In this document: positions 45,024 through 48,877 of the stretch, in pieces
How the letters are laid out: each line of letters begins with the position of its first letter
Position numbering within the stretch: the first letter of the stretch is position 1
Origin: an uncultured Eubacteriales bacterium
GTDB lineage: Bacteria > Bacillota > Clostridia > Peptostreptococcales > Anaerovoracaceae
Assembly: GCA_902779185.1 (NCBI GenBank)
Contig: CACZAM010000003.1
Coordinates: 38,483 to 102,482, forward strand
Length of the DNA: 64,000 nucleotides
Direction of reading: 5' to 3'
Notes under the pieces: generated by a model
Databases searched by the model: none
What the model saw: the letters and a program-made list of their open reading frames with translations, nothing else
Told to the model about the DNA's origin: nothing
Program-made: the position numbers and the translations under genes

Positions 45024-45926
45024 CTAGTACCATCCGTGGGAACGGAAGTGCGCCCATGCCGAGGACGGAGAACCGTACCTGCCGGCTATGTATTTGAGTC
45101 CCCATCTTATCTGCGGCTCAGGATTGGTGTAATAGTCGCTTCCCTCGGAAGCCATTTTCGATCCCGGCAGGGCCTGAGGGATCCCGTGAGCTCCGCTGCG
45201 CCTGTTGTGTGAATTCGGATTCCAGCCGGATTCTCTGTTCCAGAGGTATATAAGAGGCTCCAGCTCCGCGGTGTCCCATCCGAAATCCGGCAGAAGCGAA
45301 AGGGCGTATTTCTGATATTCTCCCTTTATGCCGGCGTCTATCGGAAGCCACTCAGGAATATCGGTCGATACCGTTCCCTCCGGAATGTAATAATCTTTTT
45401 CGTCTACGCTGACGCGGCTCCAGCCGTTGCGGGTCAGGCCTGTGCGCCTGACCATCTCGTCTTTCTCCAGCGTTCCCGCGCTTTTATATGACATGTCAGC
45501 GCCAGTCCGGTAATCAGTATTTTCAGAAATCCAGACGTATTCATATACTTCCTCTACTATGCTTTCCGCGTATGTTTTCAGAGCCTTTTTTACAGTATCT
45601 TCTGCCTGATCATTCATTCGATCGGATGTATTGACAAGGGCAACCGAATAGAGCTGCCTGAAGACATGCACTTCGGTATTGTGACACCAGAGGCTGTATA
45701 CGTAACCGCAGGCCAGTATCACTGATATCAGCTCGGCCGCAATTATAGTCTTAAGTATTTTCGGCTTTGAGCTTTTTGCCCTGGCGTGCTTTGGCTGCAG
45801 GCTTTCCGTCCTGACGTGCTTAGGATTTGAGATGTCCGCCTTGAAATGTTTAGGCCTGATTATTTCCTGTTCGTATTCTATGGCGCTTACCTCTCTGAAA
45901 CCTTCATTAATTAGAGCAATATTCAA
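45024..45926 (-). CDS. Membrane-anchored SH3/lytic-transglycosylase-like wall enzyme
   Basis: 300 residues. A basic cytoplasmic head contains three degenerate 10-residue repeats ending in PK (HFKADISNPK, HVRTESLQPK, HARAKSSKPK). One membrane helix follows (~60-80). The middle part carries an SH3-like region (GLTRNGWSRVSVDEKDYYIPEG). The last ~80 residues are a compact lysozyme-like transglycosylase domain, with the probable catalytic glutamate in WNRESGWNP and AHGIPQALPGSKM. The start is TTG at 45926 without a clear ribosome site, so it may start elsewhere. The enzyme should cut peptidoglycan outside the membrane. Confidence 0.75.
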   Translation of the reverse strand: MNIALINEGFREVSAIEYEQEIIRPKHFKADISNPKHVRTESLQPKHARAKSSKPKILKTIIAAELISVILACGYVYSLWCHNTEVHVFRQLYSVALVNTSDRMNDQAEDTVKKALKTYAESIVEEVYEYVWISENTDYRTGADMSYKSAGTLEKDEMVRRTGLTRNGWSRVSVDEKDYYIPEGTVSTDIPEWLPIDAGIKGEYQKYALSLLPDFGWDTAELEPLIYLWNRESGWNPNSHNRRSGAHGIPQALPGSKMASEGSDYYTNPEPQIRWGLKYIAGRYGSPSSAWAHFRSHGWY

Positions 45927-46041: not shown

Positions 46042-46551
46042 TTACACAGAGCGGTTTTTAGGGGATGGTATATGGCTTAGCAGCGGCTGCGCTGCCAGTG
46101 CCACGGCGATACCCACGGCGAACTGCCCGACGTTCCACGGAATACCGACTGCCGCAAGCGCCCAGCTGCCGTACATGACGCGCTCAGCTACCAGGTAACA
46201 TGCGCACATTACGAGTCCGCCGGCTGTCATGGAAACTATTTTTGAGGTTTTCTCAATCAGGGAACCGGCAATATAAGCCATTGCAAATTTAATAATGAAG
46301 GTCCATGGTGCCCAGAAGGCAAAACCGCCAAGGATGTCACCGAGCGAAGAACCCAGGGCAGCAGCTGCTGCGCCCTGTTTTTTTCCGAGCAGAAGCACGG
46401 CAATGTAGATCATCGCGTCTCCGAGGTGCACATAACCCTGAGTCATCGGGATGGGTATCCTGAACAGGATAGTGCCAAGAAGAACAAGACATGCCATGAG
46501 TGAGGCGAATACGAGTCTGTTTGTCCGGATATCTGAAGAATTGGAACTCAT
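46042..46551 (-). CDS. ECF transporter S component
   Basis: 169 residues, about six membrane helices. The pattern VFASLMACLVLLGTILFRIPIPMTQGYVHLGDAMIYIAVLLLGKKQG is typical of substrate-binding S components of energy-coupling factor vitamin transporters, with GSSLGDILGG after it. ATG 46551 has AAGGAGG five bases upstream. No EcfA/EcfT genes are near, as expected for group II systems. It is divergent from the MocR fusion, so a pyridoxine-type substrate is a reasonable guess, not shown. Confidence 0.8.
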   Translation of the reverse strand: MSSNSSDIRTNRLVFASLMACLVLLGTILFRIPIPMTQGYVHLGDAMIYIAVLLLGKKQGAAAAALGSSLGDILGGFAFWAPWTFIIKFAMAYIAGSLIEKTSKIVSMTAGGLVMCACYLVAERVMYGSWALAAVGIPWNVGQFAVGIAVALAAQPLLSHIPSPKNRSV

Positions 46552-46684
46552 AAGGACCTCCTTTTGGCAACTGTTCTTGAAAGGAATAGATATATGAAAT
46601 ATAATAGCAGACAACTGAGACTGCAAAAATGCTCATTTTATGACATTTAAAAATAACAATTCATTCAAATTCAGGAGTTAACAA

Positions 46685-48877
46685 ATGATTTCTGTAGAAA
46701 TTGATTACAATTCAGGTAAAAGTCTTTATGTACAGCTTTATGAACACATCAAAAGGGAGATCACTGAAGGCCGGATCGGAACAGGAGAGAGACTGCCTTC
46801 ACTGAGAACAATGGCTGACGAGGCAGGTTTGAGTGTCACTACTGTCAAAATGGCTTATGAACAGCTGATAGTAGAGGGTTACCTTATAAGCAAGCCGCAG
46901 TCAGGGTATTACGCGGCAAGCGGAGCTGTAATAAAAGACTCACAAAAGAGACCAAAAGAACATGGCGCGGAAGACAGAGAGCGTCCGGGAGAGCAGGGGA
47001 GCAGCGCACAAGAGCAAAAGAACAGTAAGCCGGTCTTCAGCTATGATCCGGAGTCCTTTGATTTTGTCAAATGGAAGAAATGCATGTCGGCGGTCCTCAA
47101 CGAGACACCAGAGCTTCTTCTTTCCGAGGGAGACCGTCAGGGCGAGCCGGCTCTCAGAGAAGAGATAGCGAGGTATCTTTACAAGTCAAGAGGAGTGATA
47201 TGCACGCAGGAGCAGGTGGTCATCAGCGCCGGCACACAGCAGCTTATGAACCATCTGGCAAGGATACTTAAAATGATGGATATAGTCCATGTGTCCGTTG
47301 AAGATCCGGGCTATATGCCTGTAAGGAGCATCCTGCGTGACTGGGGCTTCAGCATGAGCTGCATCCCTGTCGAGGATGATGGCATAGTGATAGAGCGCCT
47401 CCCTGTGAACATAAGGACGGCTGCGTATATCTGCCCGCAGAATCAGTTTCCGACCGGAGCGCTGATGCCGATAAGCCGCAGACGTGAGATACTCGACTGG
47501 GCTGAGGCAAACGACAGCATAATCATAGAAGATGACTACAACAGCGAGCTCAGGTATACAGGAATGCCTGTCCCTGCGCTGCAGGGTATAGATCACGGCA
47601 GCCGGGTCGTATACCTCGGCTCCTTTACGTCCACACTGTTTCCGGCCATAAGGATCAGCTACATGGTGCTGCCGGAAAGAATGGTGAAGCTTTATGAAAA
47701 AATACGCAATAATTACGACCAGACCTGCTCCAAAACTGAGCAGCTGACTCTGGCGGAGTTCATGAAGAGGGGATTCTTTCACACCAACCTGAGGCGTGTG
47801 CGCAAGCTTTACTCGGTCAAGCTGCAGGAGGCGCTTGAAGCGATCAGAGAGTACGGAAGTGAGAGCAATTTCCTGACAGCTGAGAATACCCAGTCGGGAA
47901 TAAACATAATTTTCAGACTGAATACCCATACGAAGGTAATAACCAAGGGTCAGAACGGCGATGCCAGGATCATTGAAATACGCCGTGAAATGGCGGACCG
48001 TCTCGTACAGATAGCTGCCGAAGCCGGCATCAAGGTGAGAGACATCGACCAGCTCGACCATGACGGCCAGATGTATATGGTGTTTTACTATAATCAGATC
48101 CCTCTCGGACAGATCAGAACCGCTGTCAAAGAAATGATCGAAGGTTTCAAATCCGATGTTACAAAAGGCAGCCTGAGCCTTCCTTCGGTGTATGAAGTCA
48201 TAAGGCTGAGCGGAGGCAAACCGCAGTTCCTGAAGGAACACTATGAGAGACTCGAGAGATCTCTCGGAAGCATGGGTATCCCTGTGCCGTTTACGTGTGA
48301 CACACTGGCCGGATGTATAGATCAGCTCGCAGAAGAGAGCGGGATAAAAGACCACAATATAAAAATAGAAGTGGACATCAGCGGTCATTCAATGATGTAT
48401 CTGAATCCGACACACTACCCGTCCGCGGAGCTGTACGAGCTCGGGGTCAGAACGGACATTTTCCGTGGCGAGAGAAAGAACCCTAACATCAAGATGATGG
48501 ACCGCGAGCTCAGGGACGCGACCAACAAAGCGATAAAAGCGGGTGATCTGTATGAAGTGCTTCTGGTAAACAGGGACGGAGTCATAACAGAGGGCAGCCG
48601 CTCCAATGTTTTCTTCATCAAAAACGGAGAGGTATACACCTCTCCGACAGACGCAGTACTGCCCGGCGTCACCAGAACTATAATCATAAAGATCATAGAA
48701 GAAGCCGGCATCCCGCTGCATTACTGTGCGGTAAAGCAGAATGAGCTGGCCGAATTCGACGCGGCATTTATAAGCGGCACCTCGCCTAAGGTGCTTCCGA
48801 TCGCTTATATCGGTGATATCTCATATGATGTCAACGATCCGGTGCTGAGATTGATTATGGCTAAGTATACTGCCTGA
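46685..48877 (+). CDS. GntR-MocR regulator fused to a class IV aminotransferase
   Basis: 730 residues, three modules. Residues ~1-75 are a GntR winged helix (SLYVQLYEHIKREITEGRIGTGERLPSLRTMADEAGLSVTTVK). Residues ~115-480 are a class I aminotransferase-like domain, as in MocR regulators. The segment that normally has the PLP lysine (GSFSKTL) reads GSFTSTLFP, with Ser316 instead. Residues ~490-730 are a class IV (branched-chain/D-amino acid/ADC lyase) aminotransferase fold: NPNIKMMDREL, with Lys603 as the probable PLP lysine, and EGSRSNVFFIKNGEVYTSPTDAVLPGVTR. No frameshift is seen across either junction. It is divergent from an ECF S component. Confidence 0.88.
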   Translation: MISVEIDYNSGKSLYVQLYEHIKREITEGRIGTGERLPSLRTMADEAGLSVTTVKMAYEQLIVEGYLISKPQSGYYAASGAVIKDSQKRPKEHGAEDRERPGEQGSSAQEQKNSKPVFSYDPESFDFVKWKKCMSAVLNETPELLLSEGDRQGEPALREEIARYLYKSRGVICTQEQVVISAGTQQLMNHLARILKMMDIVHVSVEDPGYMPVRSILRDWGFSMSCIPVEDDGIVIERLPVNIRTAAYICPQNQFPTGALMPISRRREILDWAEANDSIIIEDDYNSELRYTGMPVPALQGIDHGSRVVYLGSFTSTLFPAIRISYMVLPERMVKLYEKIRNNYDQTCSKTEQLTLAEFMKRGFFHTNLRRVRKLYSVKLQEALEAIREYGSESNFLTAENTQSGINIIFRLNTHTKVITKGQNGDARIIEIRREMADRLVQIAAEAGIKVRDIDQLDHDGQMYMVFYYNQIPLGQIRTAVKEMIEGFKSDVTKGSLSLPSVYEVIRLSGGKPQFLKEHYERLERSLGSMGIPVPFTCDTLAGCIDQLAEESGIKDHNIKIEVDISGHSMMYLNPTHYPSAELYELGVRTDIFRGERKNPNIKMMDRELRDATNKAIKAGDLYEVLLVNRDGVITEGSRSNVFFIKNGEVYTSPTDAVLPGVTRTIIIKIIEEAGIPLHYCAVKQNELAEFDAAFISGTSPKVLPIAYIGDISYDVNDPVLRLIMAKYTA

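Follow-up and report, generated by a model that had tools for sequence, protein, structure and literature searches.

A MocR-like regulator without the PLP-binding lysine is fused to a class IV aminotransferase domain beside an ECF transporter gene

Introduction

MocR regulators have been described as PLP Schiff-base proteins, and the excerpted text of PMC6677901 gives Asp279 and Lys312 as conserved in all MocR clusters. One gene of the window (the whole stretch of 64,000 nucleotides analysed here) encodes a GntR-type regulator that has a serine in place of this lysine and continues in the same chain into a class IV aminotransferase domain. What can such a regulator sense, and what is the role of the enzyme domain at its C-terminus? 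The first-pass annotation had suggested that PLP or an amino acid may be sensed through the class IV domain, or that the protein may be an enzyme controlling its own gene. With modest confidence, we consider the protein a PdxR-type regulator of a vitamin-uptake divergon, which would read a B6 vitamer non-covalently and to which a working class IV transaminase would have been added C-terminally once.

Results

The features of the locus are listed in Table 1. The first-pass reading of a single frame joining a GntR helix-turn-helix (HTH), a MocR domain and a class IV domain was borne out: all 730 codons are intact, and Pfam and NCBIfam agree. In Pfam, Aminotran_1_2 (PF00155) matched residues 149-374 with 41.5 bits and Aminotran_4 matched residues 502-707 with 148 bits, and the NCBIfam PdxR model NF052282 gave 435 bits over residues 13-484 (cut-off 320). 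An HTH-less relative also exceeded this cut-off with 334 bits, so the model says nothing on PdxR function, and for annotation it matters that both a Lys-less regulator and an HTH-less protein score above it. GabR and PdxR were the top Foldseek matches of the class I domain. Ser316 had been placed at the PLP lysine, with an alignment to PdxR and GabR as the proposed check; in this alignment it stands opposite the aldimine lysine of Bacillus clausii PdxR (7pq9) and Lys312 of GabR. Lys603, named as the class IV lysine, is indeed part of the class IV lysine motif and aligned to Lys137 of 9j0u. Because a serine replaces the conserved lysine in all 24 fused genes, the predicted protein is MocR-like by architecture and descent only, and not a PLP-aldimine MocR. 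Lys350 was considered as a relocated PLP lysine and rejected, as 15 of the 18 Lys-containing, ECF-linked relatives have a lysine at this position plus the usual one.

Table 1. Coordinates of the fusion gene, its parts and its upstream region in the window
Feature	Position	Strand	Remarks
Fusion gene: HTH, Lys-less MocR/PdxR class I domain, class IV aminotransferase	46685..48877	+	730 aa, ATG start, frame without stop
GntR winged helix-turn-helix, residues 14-76	46724..46912	+	PF00392, 49 bits
Class I aminotransferase-like (PdxR effector) domain, residues about 119-485	47039..48139	+	
Ser316 codon, position of PLP-binding lysine (GabR Lys312)	47630..47632	+	
Class IV aminotransferase domain, residues about 498-730	48176..48874	+	Pfam Aminotran_4 and alignment
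Lys603 codon, predicted PLP lysine of class IV domain	48491..48493	+	
Sigma-70-like promoter of fusion gene	46577..46605	+	TTGAAA-17-TATAAT, 11/12
Weak opposite promoter-like site facing ECF gene	46598..46627	-	consensus match only, 9/12; overlaps fusion-gene promoter
Candidate three-box operator	46613..46661	+	TGT (here TGA) / AAATnnnCA / ACA; common to unfused relatives
ECF transporter S component	46042..46551	-	PF07155 (PdxU/HmpT family), 106 bits, cut-off 26.7; TTG frame runs to 46626

A sequencing error that makes two genes appear as one was rejected on the basis of 22 full-length copies at 60-92% identity and a dN/dS of 0.04-0.11 across all three domains (eight genus pairs, which are non-independent and reach a dS of 1.7). 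In these pairs the HTH part had a dN/dS of 0.07-0.11, and the class I domain was the lowest of the three parts in seven of the eight, a pattern that indicates purifying selection on all three domains. The dN/dS row labelled HTH for L092-L097 was dropped, because the HTH is absent there and the alignment was due to chance. In the AlphaFold model the pLDDT is below 50 at residues 575-606 and 620-639, around the class IV active site, and the predicted fold of this site therefore rests on the sequence.

The PLP contact table of GabR, taken from the excerpted text of PMC6917764, was the reference for mapping the class I pocket; the 83 Lys-less rows compared comprise 53 unfused, 22 fused and 8 HTH-less ones. 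The aspartate facing the pyridine nitrogen (Asp283) is present in 83/83 rows and the stacking tyrosine (Tyr285; GabR Tyr281) in 82/83, and position 210 (GabR Tyr205) is Tyr or Phe in every row. The position of GabR Phe250 is Phe or Tyr in 49/53 unfused and in 30/30 fused and HTH-less rows. The phosphate residue 323 (GabR Arg319) is Arg or Lys throughout the 83, namely Arg in 30/30 fused and HTH-less rows; the 53 unfused ones divide into 39 with Lys and 14 with Arg. As for the substrate contacts of GabR, Arg207 is replaced by Pro in 49/53 unfused and 30/30 other rows, and His114 is variable, with Val among the residues seen. This is what a pocket would show if it held a B6-like ring without bonding or transaminating it, and the Lys-less rows mean that the clade departs from the all-cluster Asp279/Lys312 scheme of PMC6677901.

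By comparison with L036/L037, the divergent ECF gene most likely starts with the ATG at 46551, and given this start the intergenic region is 46552-46684, as first annotated. Whether the ECF gene accompanies the fusion had been proposed as a check; it does so in 21/24 fused loci, and the remaining three are truncated where their contigs end. It also adjoins 17/28 unfused family loci and 6/9 unfused genus loci, and 0/8 HTH-less loci; L011, the Lys-less gene of genome G072 in the family, has no adjoining ECF gene. PF07155 matches in G238, G224 and G219 were not above about 55 bits. Neither PdxS nor PdxJ was found over cut-off in the 47 genus genomes (0/47 each, with one weak PdxS match in G206); the search controls were positive in 10 and 4 of 14, respectively, and 18/47 genomes are at least 90% complete with at most 5% contamination. 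Because the genus lacks the markers for either route of PLP synthesis, it probably takes up B6 from outside, and the regulator is likely to act on the uptake of B6 or of the analogue HMP. It had been proposed that the uptake of B6 or of an aromatic or branched precursor is controlled; B6 is the best guess given the ECF link, PF07155 and the PdxS/PdxJ counts, and no support was found for the precursor. Lys-containing MocR genes lie divergent from pdxST in G491 and from pdxS-pdxT in G072 (pdxT by eye), and in the latter the Lys-less MocR gene is elsewhere in the genome. On the other side of the ECF gene of the window, the adjoining gene (45024-45926) encodes an SLT domain and, C-terminally, an AggPromo domain.

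That the ligand is HMP (the thiamin pyrimidine, a pyridoxine analogue) and not B6 seems to us unlikely. It would suit an HmpT-like ECF transporter, the best solved relative of the S component being chain S of 4hzu (E 5e-11), which we take to be the HmpT complex, and a ligand free of an aldehyde would explain the loss of the lysine. PF07155 is, in the excerpted text of PMC9997740, the family of both PdxU and PdxU2/HmpT. However, a search of the whole window (1-64000) gave no Rfam family at gathering score, no tRNA and no known riboswitch, TPP included, and the missing PdxS and PdxJ point to a need for B6. The PdxR of Streptococcus pyogenes also argues against HMP, since it activates pdxKU without B6 and represses its own gene according to an excerpt of PMC11619246, where reporter and RT-qPCR results partly disagree, the activation of pdxKU being seen by reporter and modest by RT-qPCR.

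The promoter could be anchored in 20/21 fused loci, the 21st being too short, and the spacer is 17 in 20/20. The operator boxes stand at a fixed distance past this promoter in fused and unfused loci alike, the first box being TGA in the window as well as in four close relatives. A strict regular expression for the three boxes (0/20 fused, 8/44 unfused, 3/11 Thr, 0/16 Lys-containing ECF-linked, 2/23 Lys-containing unlinked, 0/3 sister and 0/6 HTH-less loci) was replaced because its letters were too strict. The consensus test that took its place had 22 positions, drawn largely from unfused loci, and a threshold of p<=0.01. It was passed by 15/20 fused and 21/31 unfused loci (the latter mostly the source of the consensus), by 4/16 Lys-containing ECF-linked and 4/16 Lys-containing unlinked loci, and by 0/6 HTH-less and 0/3 sister loci. 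The window copy is a marginal match (15/22 positions, p 0.010), and a repeat search found no repeats in 46552-46690. A multi-box operator in a divergent intergenic region, which is a PdxR trait, is thus present, with a marginal copy in the window. The commonest MocR motif in the excerpted text of PMC5320631 consists of two direct boxes and one inverted; the candidate operator resembles this boxed operator and, in our reading, would be of the same type. Lying just downstream of the -10 box of its own gene, it would fit autorepression; the first-pass idea of an enzyme controlling its own gene may apply. The sister loci L055-L057 have an inverted pair of their own around CTGTGATC, after the -10 box.

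The 22 full-length fusion copies, the window's own included, come from 21 of the 47 genus genomes, and with two further copies, truncated at a contig end short of the HTH, the total is 24 copies in 23/47 genomes. An unfused Lys-less relative is present in nine more genus genomes and neither form in 15, one of which (G234) has a 52-residue end fragment. Genome G206 has two different fusion genes (L292, 494-2767, and L042), each with its own ECF gene, at a stated contamination of 4%. When 393 genomes of the order were queried with the class IV domain, frames above 600 aa among the matches listed belonged to this genus and to genus g69, and one further long frame of the order (G254) joins class IV to a different partner. 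The fusion profile gave a full-length match only to the window's own protein among 292 genomes of the class. The named carriers include Mogibacterium sp. MAGs (sheep colon and goat small intestine) and the Clostridiales MAGs RUG12063 and SIG258; unfused Lys-less proteins occur in Anaerovorax sp. IOR16 and Bacilliculturomica massiliensis (L190), and the family is taken to be Anaerovoracaceae. Seven loci in one set of 80 had no readable frame and were left out. Neither the fusion nor a Lys-less PdxR clade was found in the searches of open PubMed Central texts.

The absence of the lysine extends well beyond the fused genes. The best 28 unfused matches of a longer family list have 26 Ser, 2 Thr and no Lys at this position, the unfused genes of the genus have Ser in 9/9, and three further family loci have Ser (L142, L144) and Ala (L145); the HTH-less proteins have Pro in 8/8 rows. 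Outside the family, Thr was found in three f9, two f21 and two f16 loci and in L194, L207, L216 and L220 (Mycoplasmatota), and Lys is kept in other ECF-linked MocR genes. A FastTree of 181 MocR rows was built with the lysine column masked and with near copies and weak rows left out. It contains 92 rows without and 89 with the lysine and requires five label changes, versus 60 in shuffles; 83 of the 92 Lys-less rows form one group, the base of which is weakly supported (77). Outside this main group there are stray Lys-less MocR genes with Ser, Asn or Arg (L109 2463-3884, L166, L162, L169 and L123). Because the unfused relatives are Lys-less and the fusion is nested within their clade in the tree, the loss is placed before the fusion and occurred at most a few times; a loss caused by the fusion was rejected on the same grounds, the best 28 unfused matches having Ser or Thr. 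An ECF link is possible without the loss, as 18 of the 181 rows have both this link and the lysine. A tie between lysine loss and PdxS loss was also rejected for want of contrast between groups: PdxS was over cut-off in 2/28 unfused Lys-less family genomes, 0/5 HTH-less, 0/7 Thr and 3/13 genomes with Lys-containing relatives (12 of the 13 ECF-linked, and one of the three matches marginal).

These results bear on the first-pass idea that sensing passed to the class IV domain owing to the loss of the lysine, i.e., that this domain is the real PLP sensor through Lys603 and the Lys-less class I domain is a scaffold. The class IV domain does keep its PLP residues in the same chain as the HTH, and the class I lysine is missing in every fused gene. 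But Lys-less regulators with no class IV domain adjoin the same ECF gene and mostly have the same operator, the loss of the lysine appears older than the fusion, the class I domain is the one with the lowest dN/dS in most pairs, and the class IV domain is kept in HTH-less relatives that have no DNA-binding domain. We therefore give this idea little credence.

The class I tree unites the fused with the HTH-less proteins (SH-aLRT 93) in a clade that is joined to three unfused Lys-less genes (99), and the class IV tree likewise groups fused with HTH-less proteins (96). The fusion is thus traced to a single origin within the Lys-less clade, in an ancestor of this genus and g69. The HTH-less proteins (L092-L097, L176 and L178) are one clade (100), lying inside the fused ones with a support of 89 in the class I tree, a placement left open by the 181-row tree and the class IV tree. 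No GntR domain was found by Pfam in the 3/3 g69 proteins scanned, and as an HTH is present in the closest unfused relatives, the simple reading is that it was lost in g69 and both aminotransferase domains were kept. The fusion and its HTH-less kin suggest a regulator that acquired an enzyme domain and whose descendants in one genus later gave up binding to DNA. The HTH-less contexts vary and include, by eye, acyl-CoA transferase, 2-oxoacid oxidoreductase-like, asparaginase-like and BioY/BirA-like genes; two of six g69 loci, near-identical mutually, adjoin amino-acid catabolism-like genes (by eye). The sister genes L055-L057 are Lys-less and have neither a class IV domain nor an ECF neighbour, with SDR- and NUDIX-like genes nearby (by eye).

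Class IV aminotransferases use a PLP lysine, a glutamate at the pyridine nitrogen, and a phosphate-binding arginine and threonine. The residues of class IV membership (K603, E636, R522, T663 and T699) are all present in the fusion, and they are invariant together with Y503, S697 and G698 in 31/31 fused and HTH-less rows. The nearest structure is 9j0u (E 4e-35, 286 aa), an accession that appears in an excerpt of PMC11673721 on DtolTA, a 286-aa enzyme of Desulfobacula toluolica; it is described there as monomeric and as acting on D-alanine, though in the half-reaction only, with PMP free in solution. Its residues Y34, N89, R144 and R173 are kept in 31/31 rows, and the GSRS turn and the lysine are also kept in the fusion; K91 is Lys or Arg in 31/31, Y106 is Tyr in 21/31 and Q38 is Arg in 31/31. 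The fused domain lacks the first approximately 30 residues of stand-alone members. No NCBIfam equivalog reached its cut-off for the class IV part (D-amino acid transaminase model TIGR01121, 95 bits versus 277), and the other class IV matches in the fused genomes are frames of 340-389 aa, which we took for the BCAT type. From the conserved residues we infer that the class IV domain is a working enzyme.

The same class IV family has also been joined to other proteins. In g69 it forms the C-terminus of a GDT1-type cation/proton antiporter (L104, 6255-7718; Pfam), and in another family of the order one frame contains class IV and then a peptidase T-like part (L291, 1068-3134; by eye). Monomeric action would explain the joining to several partners. 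It might be supposed from these partners that the domain is a mere passenger, an ordinary D-amino acid transaminase co-translated after a lost stop and with no regulatory influence, but 24 genes from 23 genomes and 8/8 HTH-less rows have retained it, with no re-split seen within the clade, and we hold this to be very improbable.

Discussion

The PdxR of B. clausii (7pq9, 7zla) shares with the fusion the HTH and class I domain at 33-35% identity, and both it and the streptococcal PdxR-PdxKU system share the position divergent from a B6-type gene. The fusion differs from PdxR in having Ser for the Schiff-base lysine and an added class IV domain, and its neighbour is an ECF S gene and not pdxST or pdxK. 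The fold and most contacts to the PLP ring are common to the fusion and GabR of Bacillus subtilis (4n0b), whereas the fusion has Ser for Lys312 and Pro for the substrate-carboxylate Arg207, and GabR has no class IV domain. DtolTA, the closest solved class IV protein, is a stand-alone enzyme, whereas the enzyme of the fusion is predicted from sequence. Trigger enzymes such as PutA have an enzyme and a DNA-binding part in one chain, and the enzyme domains of PutA are its sensor. The fusion shares the one-chain arrangement; unlike PutA, it has a separate Lys-less pocket.

In the PdxR-type reading that we favour, this pocket would bind a B6 vitamer (PLP, PMP or PNP) or HMP non-covalently, and ligand binding would stop activation of the ECF gene, like PLP for known PdxR. 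The fusion protein would repress its own gene. Its class IV domain would hold PLP via Lys603 and turn over a D-amino acid or amine, and the level of this enzyme would track the B6 supply. The Lys-less clade spans several families and has retained the operator, the greater part of the pocket and often the ECF gene, so that the need for covalent PLP in PdxR-type regulators becomes directly testable, as does the question of which vitamer is read.

A vitamer relay, by which the class IV domain would, like DtolTA, convert PLP with a D-amino acid and release PMP, to be read by a class I pocket that needs no aldehyde, is a speculation to which we attach the least weight. If it were true, B6 uptake would depend on how PLP and PMP are balanced and on the supply of D-amino acids, and the sensor would make its own ligand.

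Two further loci of the class IV family were noted. L105 (2580-4043) appears to be a GDT1-type fusion like L104, by length and similarity, and L106 (412-1257) is a stand-alone class IV gene amid a putative selenium gene cluster with SelA-, SelB- and SelD-like genes (by eye).
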